From NCBI GenBank assembly GCA_015231775.1, contig JADGAY010000004.1, forward strand, positions 1-49,620: a DNA stretch of 49,620 nucleotides, written 5' to 3'. Position 1 is the stretch's first letter. Every line of letters starts with the position of its first letter. Shown one piece after another: positions 38,790 to 46,146 of the stretch. The notes under the pieces were generated by a model. That model ran no database searches. It was not told where the DNA came from and was given only the letters and a program-made list of their open reading frames with translations. The stretch is from Magnetococcales bacterium. Lineage in GTDB: Bacteria > Pseudomonadota > Magnetococcia > Magnetococcales > Magnetaquicoccaceae. Position numbers and translations under genes: made by a program.

Positions 38790-39944
38790 ATGATCCACCT
38801 GCTCTACTCCGCGGATTACGAACTCTTTCTGGGGGGGATCAACCGTCCCGAGGAGGCGGTGTTGATCGAGCCGACCGCGCGTCTGCTCGAAGGGTGCGGG
38901 TCACTCGGGATACCTCTGACCCTCTTTGCCGATGTCGCCTGTCTGTGGCGCTATCGTACCCTGGGTTTGGACCGTTTCCCGGATCGGGCCGAAGCGCAAC
39001 TGGTGGAGGCGGTCCAGGGTGGTCACGATGTTCAGAGCCATCTCCACCCCCACTGGGAGGCAACCCGCATCGAGGCGGGTCGTTTTCGTTTCGATCCCGA
39101 GAGCTATCTTTGCGGCACCTGCTCCCCGGATCCCGAGGCGCGCAGACAGCGCACCACGGCCTGGTTGCAGCGTGCCGCCAGCTATTTATCCGAACTGCTG
39201 ACCCCCCACGCCCCCGATTACCGTTGCATCGCCTTTCGCGCCGGGGGGTATGGTCTGCAACCGGACGAATCGATGCTGCTCGCGGCGTTGCAAGAGACCG
39301 GCTATCGCATCGATTCGAGCATCATTCCGGGTTTTTCGCTCAACACACCCGTGCAACGGGTTGATTTCACCCGTGTACCGACGGAAGGGAACTACTGGCT
39401 CTCCCCGCCATCCGGTCTGAACAAGCCCGCGCCCGCAGGAGAAGGGATTTTCGAAATCCCGATCGGCGCCTGTCGTTTCAGCCGTCGGCACCGCTGGGCC
39501 GTGCGTCTGCCCGAGGCGTTGCGCCAGGCTTTCGGGATCCTGATCAACCAGGACGCGCCCCTCTCCCGTGGTCAACCCTGCAACGAACCGGCCTCCACCA
39601 CCCCAGCGGCTGGTCGGTTCAAACGGGCCTGGTGGCGTGTCAACACGCTGCTGGCCAACGATTTTCAACGATTGGAATTGGGAACCGATCCACGCCCGTT
39701 GCTGGCCTGTTTCGAGGGTCATCTGCGTGCCAGCGGCTACCGGAACGGTCAAAAGGAACCGCTCTTCGTGGCGTTGAACATCCATCCCAAGGGGATTCAT
39801 GCCGGGCATCTGGCTGCCCTGGAGCGGTTTCATGATCTCTTGTGGCGCCGTCACGCCGGGGAGATCCGCGCCATCACCTTCCGGCAGGCGTGGCGGATCG
39901 TGGAGTCGTTCCCCCCGCCTCCCAAAACCTCACGAACCCCCTGA
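38790..39944 (+). CDS. Polysaccharide deacetylase-like protein
   Basis: About 384 residues without a signal peptide. MIHLLYSADYELFLGG near the N-terminus and GGHDVQSHLHPHWE downstream resemble the metal-binding Asp and H-x3-H motifs of the NodB/carbohydrate esterase 4 fold; YRCIAFRAGGYGLQPDE and GYRIDSSIIPGF fit later family motifs. Cytoplasmic members occur in polysaccharide and glycan modification clusters. The ORF track begins at 38631 inside the previous gene; ATG 38790 is the likely start. The 3' end overlaps the convergent PilZ gene by 15 bp. Confidence 0.75.
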   Translation: MIHLLYSADYELFLGGINRPEEAVLIEPTARLLEGCGSLGIPLTLFADVACLWRYRTLGLDRFPDRAEAQLVEAVQGGHDVQSHLHPHWEATRIEAGRFRFDPESYLCGTCSPDPEARRQRTTAWLQRAASYLSELLTPHAPDYRCIAFRAGGYGLQPDESMLLAALQETGYRIDSSIIPGFSLNTPVQRVDFTRVPTEGNYWLSPPSGLNKPAPAGEGIFEIPIGACRFSRRHRWAVRLPEALRQAFGILINQDAPLSRGQPCNEPASTTPAAGRFKRAWWRVNTLLANDFQRLELGTDPRPLLACFEGHLRASGYRNGQKEPLFVALNIHPKGIHAGHLAALERFHDLLWRRHAGEIRAITFRQAWRIVESFPPPPKTSRTP

Positions 39945-41726
39945 CCGACGCCCCAACTCCTCGCGCTGCCGCCGGGCGATGTGGATCTGCAACCGCTCCC
40001 GATGCAACGGCGACATATGCTCGAACGAACAGGCCACCCGCCGCCGCCCGAACTCGTCGGGATCCTGCACCACCACGATGCGACCATAGGCCCAGAGCGT
40101 CTCAAATCCCTGCCCCTCGGGATCAACCGCCAAACGGATCTCAACCAGATCCCCCTTGTAAATCCGCTGCCGCAACGTGCGCCAACCCACCCCCGTGGCA
40201 CTCAAGTTGACCCCAAGAATCGCATCACCCTCCGGGGTCAACTGCTTGGGTATATCCAGCGTGGACAGATCAATCCCGGCCAGGGTCGCCCGAATCCCGA
40301 CCAGGGGATCGACCAGTTCGGGATCCGTGGTCCGCAACCCCTCGACCCGTTTATCGATCTGCCGCGCCACCTCGGACAAATCACGCTCGGTGTTCAACAA
40401 CGCCAACTTCTGCGCCACCGGATCCAACTGGATCTTCAGGATGCGCAAATCCAGCTCATCCTTGAAAAAGGCCATCAGTTGCGCCGCGTCCGCGGCGCCA
40501 GGCGGACGCTTGATCAATGCCTTGAGGAGCGTCAGAAACAACCCCAAACAGGCCTGGAACCGGCTCTCCTCCTCCTCGCCAGTCGCCTGACGAAAACGGT
40601 GATCCAGATACTCCCGCACCCACAAGGCAGGCCGCCGGGCACGGGCATTCTGCTGTCGCATGGCCTTGAGCAGGGTGTCGGCCTCGAACAACATCCGCTT
40701 TTGGGCCACCACCGCCTCGCGCAACAAAAAGTGCTGACGCTCCGCAAAACAGGCCACCGCCTGATCGAAGCTCTTCAAGCTCATGATCTTCCAGGCCAAC
40801 GGCAACTGATCGTTGAGCCGGTAATCCTGACGCTTGGGCATCAGACCGGCACGATTGGCGGGATGATCGCTCAAATAGGCCGAGGCGTGATGCGGCTCGG
40901 CCTCGACGATCTCCTTGCCTTCGGCCAACTTGCGCGCCATCCGGGCGTGACGCTCCTCCGCGGGCTGGGCGGGTGGCAGGGCAGGCTTGGTGAGGTCAGG
41001 GGCAGGGGGGATGATCTCGCGGGGCAAGGCACCTTGCACCTGAGGCGTGATGTAATAGGCGGAGGTCTCGGGACGGGCCGGCATCACAAACTCCGACCTC
41101 TCCATGACCGGCTCCCGCGGCGACGCGGATGGGGTCGGCTCGACGGAAGACGGGGTGACCTTGGGCCTGGACAAAGGGGATTGTTTGGCCGAATCCATGG
41201 TTTCGAAACGGCACTCCACGCGGATGGCGGACCCGTTCCAGTCGCGCCGCAACCGGTGCACCCGACAATAGGCGTGCATCGGCATGGGTTGTTCGGCAAA
41301 CAGGGAGAATCGCAACTCGACCCGATCCCCGATCGCCAGATCGGCCTCCTGGGTCCAGAAGGTCAGGCCGTCGCCGGAGTCGTGCCATTGAATCGGATGG
41401 GGCACATACCGATCATCCCCAGGCAGGGCCTGTTCCACGACCCGGTTGAGTTTGGCGTTCAGAAACTCCAGGACCAACAGCCTCGGCAACCGCTCCGCGG
41501 CTTCGATGCCGCCCGAGTCGATGATCTCCCGCTCCCGCTCCAGAAGAGCCAGGGTCTCATCCCCGAAGCCGGGATGCATGGCCACGGGCACCGTTCGGGA
41601 ACGACGGGCGCGGGCAACCGCATCGAGTTCCACCGGCTGGAGCTTGCGCCACCATAGCGGCACCTCGATCACATTGGATCCCACTCCTGGCGGTTTCCCG
41701 TCCATGCCCTGTCCCTCATGGCTCAC
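39930..41726 (-). CDS. Large protein with split PilZ domain (long helical insert)
   Basis: About 598 residues. An N-terminal region (about 20-178) resembles a PilZ barrel without binding motifs (VELRFSLFAEQPMPMHAYCRV...IRVECRFETMD), followed by a Pro-rich linker. At 299-303 lies RQDYR (the c-di-GMP RxxxR motif), then about 200 residues of helix, then NLSATG at 507-512 (NxSxxG) and the rest of the PilZ barrel (LVEIRLAV...RRVACSFEHM). Both c-di-GMP signature motifs are present, but the insert separates them. The GTG start at 41726 is listed; ATG 41705, after GAGGG, may be better. It follows the 200-residue PilZ gene. Confidence 0.78.
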   Translation of the reverse strand: MSHEGQGMDGKPPGVGSNVIEVPLWWRKLQPVELDAVARARRSRTVPVAMHPGFGDETLALLEREREIIDSGGIEAAERLPRLLVLEFLNAKLNRVVEQALPGDDRYVPHPIQWHDSGDGLTFWTQEADLAIGDRVELRFSLFAEQPMPMHAYCRVHRLRRDWNGSAIRVECRFETMDSAKQSPLSRPKVTPSSVEPTPSASPREPVMERSEFVMPARPETSAYYITPQVQGALPREIIPPAPDLTKPALPPAQPAEERHARMARKLAEGKEIVEAEPHHASAYLSDHPANRAGLMPKRQDYRLNDQLPLAWKIMSLKSFDQAVACFAERQHFLLREAVVAQKRMLFEADTLLKAMRQQNARARRPALWVREYLDHRFRQATGEEEESRFQACLGLFLTLLKALIKRPPGAADAAQLMAFFKDELDLRILKIQLDPVAQKLALLNTERDLSEVARQIDKRVEGLRTTDPELVDPLVGIRATLAGIDLSTLDIPKQLTPEGDAILGVNLSATGVGWRTLRQRIYKGDLVEIRLAVDPEGQGFETLWAYGRIVVVQDPDEFGRRRVACSFEHMSPLHRERLQIHIARRQREELGRRSGGS

Positions 41727-41733
41727 GGAAGGC

Positions 41734-42336
41734 TCAATAGCCGCTCTTGGCGCGCAACAGTTCGGACTGCCGCAAGAAAATGTGCTGAATCAACCGCTCA
41801 CGATCCGGATCGAGGATCGGCTCGAAACGACAGGCCACACGGGTCATCCCCCCATCGCCAAGATCGAAAATCTTCATCACCCGCGCGAAACATTCGATGA
41901 CGGTCAAGGTGTCCACCGAAAGCGAAAGGCGCATCTCCACCACATCCCCGACGATCAGGCCGGTATCCTTGTCCTCGAAGGAGATGCCGCCACCACTCAA
42001 GTTGACCGGAGTCAGGATCATGGGCCGCTCCCCCTCCCCCGGATGGAACAGCCGGAGCAGCAGGTTGAGCTTCTGATCCAGACGGGTCAGGACACGCGCC
42101 AGCAGGGGTTCGCTCTGTTCGAGCTTCTTCAGGGCTTCGGTGATGTCCAGGACAGCGATGGCCTGGTGGATGTCGTCGCTCTTGCGCGGAAAGGTGCGAT
42201 GCTGCTCGAAATAGGTCATCATCGCCTTGAAGCGCTCTTCGTCGATCTTGCGCCAGGCCAGGGGAAGATGATCGTCCACCCGGACAAACTCCCGCTGCTG
42301 CGGCGGTTGCGAGGGTTGCTTGGTCTGCTGCGCCAT
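41734..42336 (-). CDS. PilZ-domain protein with helical insert
   Basis: A 200-residue protein. R15-EFV-R19 gives the RxxxR motif at the start of LPLAW; about 90 helical residues follow (EERFKAMMTYFEQHRTF...EALKKLEQSEPLLARVLTRLDQKLNLLLRLF) before N112-LSGGG-I (NxSxxG) and the rest of the barrel (VVEMRLSLS...TRVACRFEPI) with a C-terminal helix. All c-di-GMP binding motifs are present. The architecture matches the C-terminal half of the next gene, so the two are paralogous. AGGAG lies 6 bases before the ATG. It stands downstream of the motA/motB-like pair. Confidence 0.85.
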   Translation of the reverse strand: MAQQTKQPSQPPQQREFVRVDDHLPLAWRKIDEERFKAMMTYFEQHRTFPRKSDDIHQAIAVLDITEALKKLEQSEPLLARVLTRLDQKLNLLLRLFHPGEGERPMILTPVNLSGGGISFEDKDTGLIVGDVVEMRLSLSVDTLTVIECFARVMKIFDLGDGGMTRVACRFEPILDPDRERLIQHIFLRQSELLRAKSGY

Positions 42337-42467: not shown

Positions 42468-43250
42468 CTAATGGGAACCGCCCTGGGTTGATGTCGCGGG
42501 TGTGGAAGCCTGCCCCGCCACCGCCGGCTCCGTTTTTTCAGCCACGGGACGGATCTCGCGGGTCAGCAGAATCTCGATTCCCGCCCCCTGGCCCCGTTCG
42601 GTGGGCGTGGTTCCCAACACCTCGCCGGGCCGATGCCCGGATGCCACCAGACGGGTCGGATCCATGCCACCCGCCACGAAAAACTCACCCAGAACCGCGG
42701 CCTCGGCGGCGGTCATGGCCCAGACGCTCCCCAGCGAACCCCCCGAGCCACCCTTTTCGCCAAAGCTGTCGATGCGCACCACGTTGGGCATGCGGGAGAA
42801 CTGCGCCGCCAACTGCTTGAGAACCGGTCGCACCTCGTCACGCAGGGTCACCCCACCCTCGACGAACAGGGTGGATCGACCCATGCGGATCAAAAACCCC
42901 TCCTCGATGGGTCTGGCCTCCAGGGATTTGGCATCCGTCAGACGGCCACGCATGGCCTCGAGTCGCTCCTTGATGCGCACCAGCTCCACCGCCTGGGTGA
43001 ATTCGATCGCCTCGAGCATGGTCCGGGAGTCGCCCCCCTGCCCGCCCTCGAAGGAGAACTCGATGGCATCCAGACCGAGGGAGGCGCGCACCGACGACAG
43101 GGCGGCGGCCATGCGCACCGGATCCGGACGCGACATGGAGAGCAGCATGAAGCAGACCCCCAGCAGCACGGCCAACGTGCTCGCCAGCGGCATCAGCCAC
43201 CCCGGCCCCCTGGCCGTCACCGTGGATCCATTCTCATCCGTGTCCGCCAT
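42468..43250 (-). CDS. MotB-like stator protein lacking the ion-binding Asp
   Basis: A 260-residue protein with MotB layout: a short cytoplasmic N-terminus, one membrane helix (WLMPLASTLAVLLGVCFMLLSMS, about 18-40), a linker and an OmpA-like domain (about 130-235). Aligned ungapped with PomB/MotB (W....AD....), the essential Asp is Ser24. In the OmpA domain the peptidoglycan-binding 'GHTD' is SFGE and the 'NRRVE' Arg is lost (GAGIEILL). The pair with the upstream motA is clear by order, 146 bp apart. It may be a non-conducting or regulatory partner; it is unlikely to be a normal torque-generating stator. AGGA precedes the ATG. Confidence 0.75.
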   Translation of the reverse strand: MADTDENGSTVTARGPGWLMPLASTLAVLLGVCFMLLSMSRPDPVRMAAALSSVRASLGLDAIEFSFEGGQGGDSRTMLEAIEFTQAVELVRIKERLEAMRGRLTDAKSLEARPIEEGFLIRMGRSTLFVEGGVTLRDEVRPVLKQLAAQFSRMPNVVRIDSFGEKGGSGGSLGSVWAMTAAEAAVLGEFFVAGGMDPTRLVASGHRPGEVLGTTPTERGQGAGIEILLTREIRPVAEKTEPAVAGQASTPATSTQGGSH

Positions 43251-43396: not shown

Positions 43397-44149
43397 TCAG
43401 TCGATCTTGCGCGCCGAGGGGGGCAGAACCGCGATCAGGGATTGCATCAGCATGCGCGGGTTGACACCCTTTTGAATGCTGATCATGCCATCGATGATCA
43501 CCTGACGGACCATCTGCTCCTCCTCGCTGTAGGCCACCAGCTTGTAGGAGATCGGAATCGCCACCAGATTGGCGATCAGGATGCCGTAGAAGGTGCTGAC
43601 CAGGGCCGTGGCCAATCCGGGTCCGATGGCGGAGGGATCCTCCATGTGACCGAGCATCTGCGCCAGACCGATCAGGGTACCCAGGAGTCCGAAGGCGGGG
43701 GCCGCCTCGGCGATCCCCTCGAAGATCCCCACGCCGTTGCGATGGCGATCCTTTTGACAGCTCAACTCCTTGGCGAGGATCTTCTCCAGGAAGGCGGGAT
43801 CCGCCCCATCGACGCAGTGGTTGATCGCCTTTTGCAGGAATTCGTCATCCGACTTCACCTTCTCCAGGGCGAGGATGCCATCCTTGCGGGCGATCTGCGA
43901 CATCTCGACGATCTGCTTGATGATCTTGTGGATGTCGTGGGACTTGACGAAAAAGGCCTTCATCAGGATGCTGAAGGCTCCGAACACTTCACTCATGCGA
44001 TGCCGAATGAGCAGCGAGGCGATGGTCCCGCCAAAGACGATCAGGATGCTGGGGATGTCCACGAACATGCCCAGTTGGCCACCCATCAGGATGGCGCCGA
44101 TCATCAGCACCAACCCGAACACGAAGCCGATTATCGTTGCGAAATCCAT
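43397..44149 (-). CDS. motA: MotA/PomA-family stator protein
   Basis: A 250-residue membrane protein with four helices: ATIIGFVFGLVLMIGAILMGG, IPSILIVFGGTIASLLI, then APAFGLLGTLIGLAQMLG and ALVSTFYGILIANLVAIPISYKL. The cytoplasmic loop has the conserved IARKDGILALE, with the Arg and Glu that contact FliG, and the FE..a...PAFGLLGTLIGL proline region. It resembles the sodium-type PomA/MotA branch. Unlike its MotB-like partner it has no obvious defect. AGGAT precedes the ATG; a candidate promoter lies about 60-90 bp upstream. Confidence 0.93.
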   Translation of the reverse strand: MDFATIIGFVFGLVLMIGAILMGGQLGMFVDIPSILIVFGGTIASLLIRHRMSEVFGAFSILMKAFFVKSHDIHKIIKQIVEMSQIARKDGILALEKVKSDDEFLQKAINHCVDGADPAFLEKILAKELSCQKDRHRNGVGIFEGIAEAAPAFGLLGTLIGLAQMLGHMEDPSAIGPGLATALVSTFYGILIANLVAIPISYKLVAYSEEEQMVRQVIIDGMISIQKGVNPRMLMQSLIAVLPPSARKID

Positions 44150-44207: not shown

Positions 44208-44236
44208 ATTCTCATCGCGAAGCCGCGATCTGTCAA
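44208..44236 (-). promoter_or_regulatory. Candidate motA promoter with palindromic spacer
   Basis: On the minus strand, a perfect TTGACA and GAGAAT (four of six) are separated by exactly 17 bases. Almost all of the spacer is an inverted repeat, ATCGCG-GCTT-CGCGAT. The -35 overlaps the mtnA stop codon. The repeat could be an operator or the mtnA 3' hairpin. Confidence 0.45.
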
Positions 44237-45282
44237 GCCTTGAGCACCGCGCGCATGCGGATGGCATCCGGCGCATGGACCACCCCCCGTTCGGTGACCA
44301 GGGCCGTGACCAGCTCCGCCGGGGTGACATCGAAGGCGGGATTGAACACCCGAACCCCCTCGGCGGCGATGCGCAGGCCGCGCACATGGGTCACCTCCTC
44401 GCCGGGGCGCTCCTCGATGGGGATTTCCAGGCCGGTAGGGGTGGCGAAATCGACGGTGGAGAGGGGACAGGCGACCAGGAACGGGAGCCCGTGGCGTCGC
44501 GCCAGGACCGCATGGCCATAGGTGCCGATCTTGTTGGCCACATCGCCGTTGGCCGCCACCCGATCGGCGCCCACCACCACGGCATCGATCAGGCCGCGAC
44601 TCATGGCGTGTCCGGACATGGAGTCGGTCATCAGGGTCACTTCGAAGCCATCCTGTTCCAGCTCCCAGGCGGTAAGCCGCGCCCCCTGCCAGAAGGGACG
44701 GGTTTCGGTGGCAAACACCCGCACCTCGCCGAAACGCTCCCTGGCGGCGCGGATCACCCCGAGGGCGGTGCCATACCCGGCGGTGGCCAGCGCCCCGGCA
44801 TTGCAGTGGGTCATGATGGTCAAGGGACGCCCCGCCGGGGGCTCGGGGAGGATCGCGGCCCCGGCTTGACCCATGGCCCGACACGAGGCGATATCCTCCC
44901 GGCGGATCGCTTCGGCTTCCCGCAGCAGCCGCTCGGGGAGATCGACCGGATCCCCCGCGAGCAGGGGTTCGAGGCGATCCAACGCCCAGCCCAGATTGAC
45001 CGCCGTGGGACGGGCCTGACGCAACAGGCGCAACCCCTCGGCCATGGCCTCGGGCCAGGAGGCCGGGGTTCCCGAGCGGGCCAGACGAAACGCCTCGACC
45101 GCCACCCCGAAGGCCGCCGCGCAGCCGATGGCCGGCGCACCGCGCACCACCATGGCGCGAATCGCCTCGGCCACCTCGGCGGCGGAGGCGAACTCCAGAT
45201 GGATCACCTCTGCCGGCAGCAGGCGTTGATCGAGCATGCGCACCTTGCCATCCTTCCAGACAGCCACATCGAAAACGGTCAT
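44233..45282 (-). CDS. mtnA: S-methyl-5-thioribose-1-phosphate isomerase
   Basis: A 349-residue enzyme of the methionine salvage pathway that converts methylthioribose-1-phosphate to methylthioribulose-1-phosphate. VVRGAPAIGCAAAFG, TRPTAVNLGWA-type region, the catalytic C160 in MTHCNAGALATAGYGTALGV and D240 in VVVGADRVAANGDVANKIGTY are all present; the two residues fall at the same numbers as in the Bacillus enzyme. AGGAG lies 6 bases before the ATG. It starts 9 bp after the prmA stop, so the two are cotranscribed. No other salvage genes are in the window. Confidence 0.95.
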   Translation of the reverse strand: MTVFDVAVWKDGKVRMLDQRLLPAEVIHLEFASAAEVAEAIRAMVVRGAPAIGCAAAFGVAVEAFRLARSGTPASWPEAMAEGLRLLRQARPTAVNLGWALDRLEPLLAGDPVDLPERLLREAEAIRREDIASCRAMGQAGAAILPEPPAGRPLTIMTHCNAGALATAGYGTALGVIRAARERFGEVRVFATETRPFWQGARLTAWELEQDGFEVTLMTDSMSGHAMSRGLIDAVVVGADRVAANGDVANKIGTYGHAVLARRHGLPFLVACPLSTVDFATPTGLEIPIEERPGEEVTHVRGLRIAAEGVRVFNPAFDVTPAELVTALVTERGVVHAPDAIRMRAVLKA

Positions 45283-45291
45283 CGTTTCTCC

Positions 45292-46146
45292 TTAGATCCT
45301 CAACAACAACACCGCCCACTCCTCGATGAACAGGGATCGCTCCAGGCGCGCCCCCTCCCCTTCAAAGGCCAGTTGCACCTCCCGCGCCTGCTCCCGCAGA
45401 ATCCCGGAGAGGATCAACCCACCCCCCGGCGCCACCGCCGCCACCAGCCGCGCCGCGTTCTCCAGCAGCACCGAGGCCAGAATGTTGGCCACCACGGTCC
45501 CGAAGCGCCCCTCGGGCACGTCGGCGCGCTCGAACAGCGCCACCCGTCCGGCCACCCCGTTGATCTCCACGTTGCGCCGCGCCGTCTCCACCGCCACCGG
45601 ATCCAGATCGGTCCCCAGCACCGACTCGGCCCCAAGCAGGGCCGCCCAGATCGCCAGAATCCCGGAACCGCTCCCCATGTCCAGCACCCGCCCCAACGGT
45701 CGCGCGTCGGTCAACGCCTCGAGCAGCTCCAGACAGCCACGGGTGGTGGCATGGGTGCCACTGCCAAAGGCCATCTCCGGATCCATGCGGATCACCAGGC
45801 GCTCCGGTTCATCGCCGGGGGGCTCCAGCCACGACGGCACGATCCACAACCGCCGCCCCACCTTCAAGGGGTGATAATCGACCTTCCACGCCTCGGCCCA
45901 ATCCGCGTCGGGAAGCGCTTGCCACGCCACGGCAGCTCTGTCGAGGGCCACATCGTGGGCCGCCAACAGCAACCGCAAACGGATCTCCAGATCGTCCCGG
46001 TCCACCGTCTCCTCGAAATAACCGGTCACCAGCAACCGCTCGCCGGTCAGGCTGGTCGAAACCCCCATGGAGCCCTCGTCGGCCAACCACTCGGCCACGG
46101 GTTCATCCCATGGGCGATCCACCATCACACGCAATTCCCAGGTCAT
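45292..46146 (-). CDS. prmA: Ribosomal protein L11 methyltransferase
   Basis: A 284-residue PrmA. An N-terminal alpha/beta L11-recognition domain (MTWELRVMVDRPWDEPVAEWLADEG...) is followed by the methyltransferase domain: FGSGTHATTRGCLELLEAL, SAM loop LDMGSGSGILAIWAALLGA, DLDPVAVETARRNVEING and VVANILASVLL. It trimethylates lysines and the N-terminus of ribosomal protein L11. The ATG at 46146 has only a weak Shine-Dalgarno (GGAA). It is divergent from mfd and followed by mtnA. Confidence 0.95.
   Translation of the reverse strand: MTWELRVMVDRPWDEPVAEWLADEGSMGVSTSLTGERLLVTGYFEETVDRDDLEIRLRLLLAAHDVALDRAAVAWQALPDADWAEAWKVDYHPLKVGRRLWIVPSWLEPPGDEPERLVIRMDPEMAFGSGTHATTRGCLELLEALTDARPLGRVLDMGSGSGILAIWAALLGAESVLGTDLDPVAVETARRNVEINGVAGRVALFERADVPEGRFGTVVANILASVLLENAARLVAAVAPGGGLILSGILREQAREVQLAFEGEGARLERSLFIEEWAVLLLRI

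Follow-up and report, generated by a model that had tools for sequence, protein, structure and literature searches.

In ion-driven flagellar stators, one aspartate (Asp) in the B subunit is regarded as the single indispensable residue. Among the closest known systems to the locus described here is the Na+-driven PomAB stator of Vibrio alginolyticus (PDB 8bri/8brd), in which the PomA residues R88, K89, E96, D114 and R232 face FliG (PMC10374538, from which the roles of the ion-path residues discussed below are also taken). In the PomB-D24N mutant motility and ion transport are lost and the complex is stable (PMC6677748), and for P. aeruginosa MotB-D30A the authors of the study suggest that it may be dominant negative via competition at the motor (PMC12288467). 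Since the first mutant is stable and inactive and the second apparently dominant negative, a natural stator without the Asp would be expected to be a non-conducting competitor for the rotor. In Pseudomonas, MotCD stimulates SadC, a cyclase, when disengaged, and FlgZ, a PilZ protein, is a binding partner of MotC (PMC9039648; PMC12288467). In the open-licence papers that we searched, no report of natural Asp-less MotBs was found.

We report on such a MotB in a Magnetococcales bacterium (Magnetaquicoccaceae). The window, i.e. the whole stretch of DNA analysed, comprises 49,620 nucleotides (GCA_015231775.1, contig JADGAY010000004.1, positions 1 to 49,620) and corresponds to contig 4 of a 3.8 Mb draft genome that is 89% complete. 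On its minus strand the genes are ordered prmA-like, mtnA-like, motA, motB, short pilZ and long pilZ (Table 1), and this prmA-mtnA-motA-motB-pilZ-pilZ locus is conserved across Magnetococcales; its two stator genes and their products, in the window and in Asp-less relatives, are referred to as the locus motA and motB. The genomes with an Asp-less locus are mostly draft metagenome-assembled genomes (MAGs), and the same-genus relatives are Magnetococcales MAGs. Variants of the gene order occur: three genomes of family f5 have the PilZ genes at the locus and motAB elsewhere, a prmA-mtnA-pilZ-pilZ locus without motAB was seen in G021, G036 and G040 (L120-L122), with an Asp-bearing PomAB-type pair on a different contig in G021 and G036, and in G032 (L092) and G034 (L093) one motA is followed by two tandem Asp-bearing motBs at the PilZ locus.

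Table 1. Features of the stator-like locus, in positions of the window
Feature	Position	Strand	Basis
motB (PomB/MotB-like, 260 aa), ion-site Asp absent	42468..43250	-	weak MotD/MotS/MotB-family matches; alignment
Ser24 codon, position equivalent to the ion-binding Asp (PomB D24)	43179..43181	-	alignment
MotB transmembrane helix, residues ~17-41, without acidic residue	43128..43202	-	
MotB plug-like helix, residues ~42-60, among the better-conserved parts of MotB	43071..43127	-	
MotB OmpA-like periplasmic domain, residues ~110-233; GHTD and NRR residues gone, fold predicted to be kept	42552..42923	-	
motA (PomA family, 250 aa); R88/K89/E96/D114/R232 kept; ion-path T185S, M155L	43397..44149	-	
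short pilZ (200 aa), RxxxR and NLSGGG; predicted fold like helical PilZ 3RQA and MotI 5VX6	41734..42336	-	
long pilZ (598 aa, two PilZ stretches), part of the conserved locus	39930..41726	-	
mtnA-like gene (IF-2B family), syntenic-locus marker; not thought part of the mechanism	44233..45282	-	
prmA-like methyltransferase gene, syntenic-locus marker; not thought part of the mechanism	45292..46146	-	name by sequence inspection

Ion site, ion path and rotor-facing residues

The preliminary description, made from the sequence alone, had proposed a MotB-like protein in which Ser24 takes the place of the ion-carrying Asp. The ORF is present as described and, with 91 MotB/PomB-type proteins aligned (the window MotB and 90 from the source genome and its relatives), Ser24 falls in the ion-site column; the conserved transmembrane Asp that marks the B subunit of an ion-driven stator is thus missing, and the alignment places neither D nor E in the transmembrane helix. 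Relocation of the acidic residue was considered and rejected, as none is found at any ion-path position of the locus MotA or MotB, and the sole acids at the membrane edge, MotA positions 31 and 170, are also present in the Asp keepers. The loss is common to the 82%-identical orthologue in G007 and to every orthologue found in the genus (S, T or N), and it recurs in many separate MAGs, so sequencing error and sporadic mutation are both ruled out. The Ser itself is not conserved, the residue varying among orthologues (S, T, N, G or A). We strongly infer that the MotA-MotB pair of the window does not conduct ions.

The neighbouring MotA had been said to look intact, and this holds: the ORF is uninterrupted, the protein has its best match in the PomA family and carries a MotA_ExbB domain, and its residues 1-238 align to residues 1-238 of the solved Vibrio PomA, so that PomA numbering applies directly. 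All five FliG-facing charges are present in the window MotA, and across the MotA rows from Asp-less loci each is kept in 21-23 of 23. Residues at or near the ion path behave differently: T185, T186, N194 and M155 are invariant in 23 Asp-bearing Pom-type rows and kept in 4, 16, 12 and 4, respectively, of the 23 Asp-less rows. This is the pattern that would be expected if contact with the rotor were needed and ion flow were not. In the window protein the ion path is mildly altered; the Na+ site T158/T185/T186 reads T158, S185, T186, and among the residues compared only T185S and M155L are changed, the latter leaving 80% of motility in Vibrio PomA (PMC10374538). Because the changes are limited to these two and M155L is tolerated, the window A subunit might still conduct in combination with a different B subunit.

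These residues also bear on the idea that ions continue to pass, via Ser, Thr or Asn or another residue, or that the proteins belong to a machine other than the flagellum in which ions take another route. Ser, Thr and Asn have polar side chains, and GldLM-type related rotary complexes have their key charges in other places. We nevertheless consider this highly improbable, given that Gly and Ala also occur at the ion site, that no new ion-path acid appears in the helices of either subunit, and that the D24N and D30A mutants are inactive (PMC6677748; PMC12288467). The kept FliG-facing charges argue against a non-flagellar machine, and an anti-phage system of the Zor type was discarded after a PADLOC search gave no match. 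No relatives of the locus MotA were found in viral contigs.

The preliminary description had paired the missing Asp with a degenerate OmpA-like domain. The GHTD- and NRR-type residues are indeed absent from the window MotB and from most of its genus; the pairing does not hold. Asp-less copies in the sister genus g2 and in family f13 keep NRR together with HTD or YTD, and the Asp-bearing MotB encoded at C60 of the source genome has neither GHTD nor NRR, which makes this residue loss lineage-specific and excludes it as a companion of the Asp loss. The predicted MotB model has a mean pLDDT of 67, with higher values for its periplasmic part, and matches the periplasmic domains of MotB, MotS and PomB, and the OmpA-like fold is predicted to be kept. 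As a separate observation, the C60 protein (G000 C60:12185-12868) and other canonical Asp-bearing MotBs of the order are without the usual peptidoglycan-contact residues GHTD and NRR, and stator anchoring in these bacteria may be unusual.

Recurrent loss, additional stators and selection

Among the 37 Magnetococcales genomes in which the locus and its MotB are both readable, the Asp has been lost in 23, with S, T, N, G or A in its place, and kept in 14 (including G014, G019, G023, G024, G025, G027, G028, G032, G034, G038 and G039). The Asp-less group comprises all ten members of the window genus that carry the gene (S, T, N), four genomes of g2 (G), six of f13 (S, G), and G030 (A), G018 (N) and G020 (S). 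On a MotA tree with 73 rows four state changes are needed, three of them forced by well-supported branches, and a tree of the locus rows only needs three. Forcing all Asp-less rows into one clade costs 117.5 log-likelihood units (AU test, p 3e-8), which rules out one ancient loss for all. The Asp has been lost at least three times independently; the long branches leading to G018, G020 and G030 are less surely placed, and the losses in g2 and f13 are independent of them. Loss is the likely direction of change since G014 and G039 adjoin Asp-less clades yet keep the Asp. Asp-bearing orthologues in close relatives had been named beforehand as a sign of sporadic mutation or error; the outcome of this check is mixed, as G014 and G039, from related lineages, are such orthologues, but the loss is fixed by clade and is neither sporadic nor an error. 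Outside the order no Asp-less MotB was seen, 31 of 31 sampled high-scoring Pseudomonadota matches keeping the Asp, in a survey that is a sample and whose search model was built from Asp-less sequences.

The source genome also encodes a canonical Asp-bearing MotAB, at C60. Another Asp-bearing stator is present in 22 of the 23 Asp-less genomes (the exception, G008, is 76% complete) and in only 3 of the 14 genomes with Asp at the locus, tandem locus copies excluded (Fisher p 5e-6). These are hand-compiled counts from related genomes, which provide only three independent pairs, too few for a comparison that takes the phylogeny into account. This distribution could point to subunit mixing, in which the locus MotA or MotB works with an Asp-bearing MotB or PomB encoded elsewhere; a heterodimer of two MotBs, for example, would contain one ion site and might yield a stator that is weaker or gated in another way. 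It would agree with T158, T186 and N194 being kept in the window MotA and with the tolerance of Vibrio PomA for M155L. Moreover, in the distant genomes G054, G051 and G060 (L105-L107) a pair of tandem motBs comes after motA; the ion-site residue is E or Q in one of them and D in its partner, so mixed B-subunit dimers are possible in that family. We regard mixing as unlikely for the window pair, however, because the MotA ion path is more broken in other Asp-less lineages (T186V/I/F/A, N194H/Y/A, T158S), the locus and canonical MotBs of the source genome are encoded on different contigs and only ~27% identical, and the Asp-site mutants in the literature consulted are apparently dominant negative, not half-active (PMC12288467).

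Two further kinds of stator- or rotor-like genes were observed. The sister genus g2 has a second Asp-less MotB-like kind that carries Asn in the ion-site position and lacks an adjoining motA (L057-L061: G013 C109, G014 C52, G017 C410, G011 C47 and G015 C503); the gene after it encodes a methyl-accepting chemotaxis signalling domain in G011 and G014, and a CBS-domain protein in G013. In addition to full-length FliG, a stand-alone FliG C-terminal domain gene (~145 aa) occurs in G000 (C34:19741-20058; L129:5670-6092) and relatives; it is common in family f1 and also present in f8, where the stator locus keeps the Asp. As a rotor-mimicking partner it was rejected, being found in both Asp-less and Asp-keeping genomes.

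Selection was estimated as dN/dS (NG86; in the more distant pairs, synonymous sites approach saturation) over matched genome pairs. Values for the locus MotA are 0.025-0.094, mostly 0.03-0.05, similar to those for canonical or second-copy MotA (0.04-0.11), while the locus MotB gave 0.13-0.32 vs 0.05-0.08 for canonical MotB and 0.05 and 0.14 for second PomB copies; the short PilZ lies mostly at 0.05-0.2. These estimates indicate that the locus genes are maintained by selection, relaxed in the case of MotB. Relative to Asp-bearing PomBs, the loss of conservation in the locus MotB is concentrated in its transmembrane helix and in CPxCKKG, an N-terminal motif, and the OmpA domain is no more variable in Asp-less than in Asp-bearing copies.

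Slow decay, in which a redundant old stator copy lost its ion site once a second stator was present and now drifts towards a pseudogene, would account for a loss seen almost only where another stator exists, for the faster evolution of the locus MotB compared with canonical MotB and for the variable replacement residue. It appears rather improbable all the same, with dN/dS as low for the locus MotA as for working MotA and well under 1 for MotB in every pair, retention across whole clades, and ORFs that are open in every lineage except for a short second copy in G020 and at contig ends. The preference of the preliminary description for a changed function over decay is supported by purifying selection, conservation in the genus and in other families, recurrent loss and the second, Asp-bearing stator.

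PilZ neighbours and a possible role at the rotor

The short PilZ protein falls in Pfam PilZ and has both RxxxR and (D/N)xSxxG within the domain. RxxxR (R15/R19) is invariant in 28 of 28 sequences and NLSGGG is present in most, the second motif drifting in g2. Its predicted fold (mean pLDDT 78) is best matched by the helical tetrameric PilZ 3RQA/3PH1 and next by the B. subtilis clutch MotI (5VX6). The PilZ proteins beside the locus motB are predicted to bind c-di-GMP, and gene linkage together with the modelled likeness to MotI suggests that the short one might be a stator-binding regulator. The PilZ genes also adjoin Asp-bearing locus copies; they are not specific to the Asp-less form, and the linkage is older than the Asp loss.

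The conserved PilZ neighbours and the precedent of MotCD-SadC and FlgZ-MotC (PMC9039648; PMC12288467) would also suit a signalling scaffold, i.e. an off-rotor sensor of load, surface contact or motor state that passes its signal to c-di-GMP enzymes or PilZ proteins. Such a role seems about as doubtful as subunit mixing: the linkage predates the Asp loss, a pure scaffold would have no need of the FliG-facing charges that are kept, Asp mutants abolished stator signalling in P. aeruginosa (PMC12288467), and no cyclase gene lies among the immediate neighbours examined.

The reading that we prefer, with a probability of roughly 45%, is a pseudo-stator derived from PomAB that does not conduct ions and whose docking at the rotor is controlled by c-di-GMP and PilZ proteins. 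A MotB dimer would be encircled by the locus MotA subunits, following the architecture of known stators. Judging from PomB-D24N and MotB-D30A, this complex would neither conduct ions nor generate torque because its ion site has no carboxylate, and the kept FliG-facing charges of MotA would allow contact with the rotor. Once docked it would compete with the stators that generate torque in the cell, serving as a brake, clutch or spacer, the timing of docking being controlled by the adjacent PilZ proteins, as their conserved linkage, motifs and likeness to MotI suggest. Because the PilZ genes share the locus, a c-di-GMP-regulated brake, clutch or spacer would be the likeliest role. Somewhat more tentatively, we propose that a naturally evolved, repeatedly selected stator ring without ion conduction sits at the rotor and works, under the control of c-di-GMP, as a brake, a clutch or a freewheeling idler gear. 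In favour of the pseudo-stator are the recurrent, clade-fixed Asp loss, the selection on both genes, the kept FliG-facing charges alongside the changed ion path, the Asp-bearing stator elsewhere in nearly all Asp-less genomes, the adjoining PilZ gene and the behaviour of the engineered Asp mutants. Against it stand the presence of the PilZ genes beside Asp-bearing copies, the mildness of the ion-path change in the window MotA, the lack of phylogenetic independence in the link of Asp loss to a second stator, and the loss of peptidoglycan-contact residues from MotB in the window genus, through which its hold at the motor may be weaker. What the preliminary description offered, a regulatory or non-conducting stator-like complex, thus remains the best guess, its role being hypothetical.

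Comparison with known stators

If this reading is true, the locus represents a class of stator whose function is independent of ion flow, and a clade-fixed, recurrently Asp-less stator that remains under selection and has its rotor-facing charges would be a natural case in which docking at the rotor and ion flow are uncoupled. It would provide a natural system for what an unpowered stator does and for whether c-di-GMP control works through a dummy stator, with the Asp-keeping lineages of G014 and G039 as natural before-and-after comparisons.

The likeness to Vibrio PomAB lies in the alignment of MotA over residues 1-238, in the FliG-facing charges, and in the MotB layout, where helix, plug, linker and OmpA-like domain follow one another as in PomB; unlike PomAB, the window pair is without the ion-site Asp, T185 and M155 are changed, and peptidoglycan-contact residues have been lost in the genus. 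With the Asp-bearing PomAB found at the same locus in G027, G038, G014 and G039 it shares synteny, PilZ neighbours and orthologous MotA and MotB, whereas in those the Asp is in place at the ion site and the T158/T185/T186/N194 path is intact. In the laboratory mutants PomB-D24N and MotB-D30A the same residue was removed, giving proteins that are inactive, stable (D24N) and apparently dominant negative (D30A); those are engineered single changes, in contrast to a loss that is natural, old and recurrent and that is accompanied by drift of the ion path. The MotI (DgrA/YpfA) clutch and the YcgR brake are PilZ-domain c-di-GMP binders that act on MotA, and the short PilZ is MotI-like and has RxxxR. 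They act on a working stator, however, whereas here pilZ is linked to an Asp-less one, and unlike MotI the short PilZ contains a helical insert resembling that of XCC6012 (3RQA). Finally, dual-stator systems (MotAB/MotCD in Pseudomonas, those of Shewanella, and MotAB/MotPS in Bacillus) also have more than one stator type per genome, with one stator under c-di-GMP control in Pseudomonas, but there both stators conduct ions.
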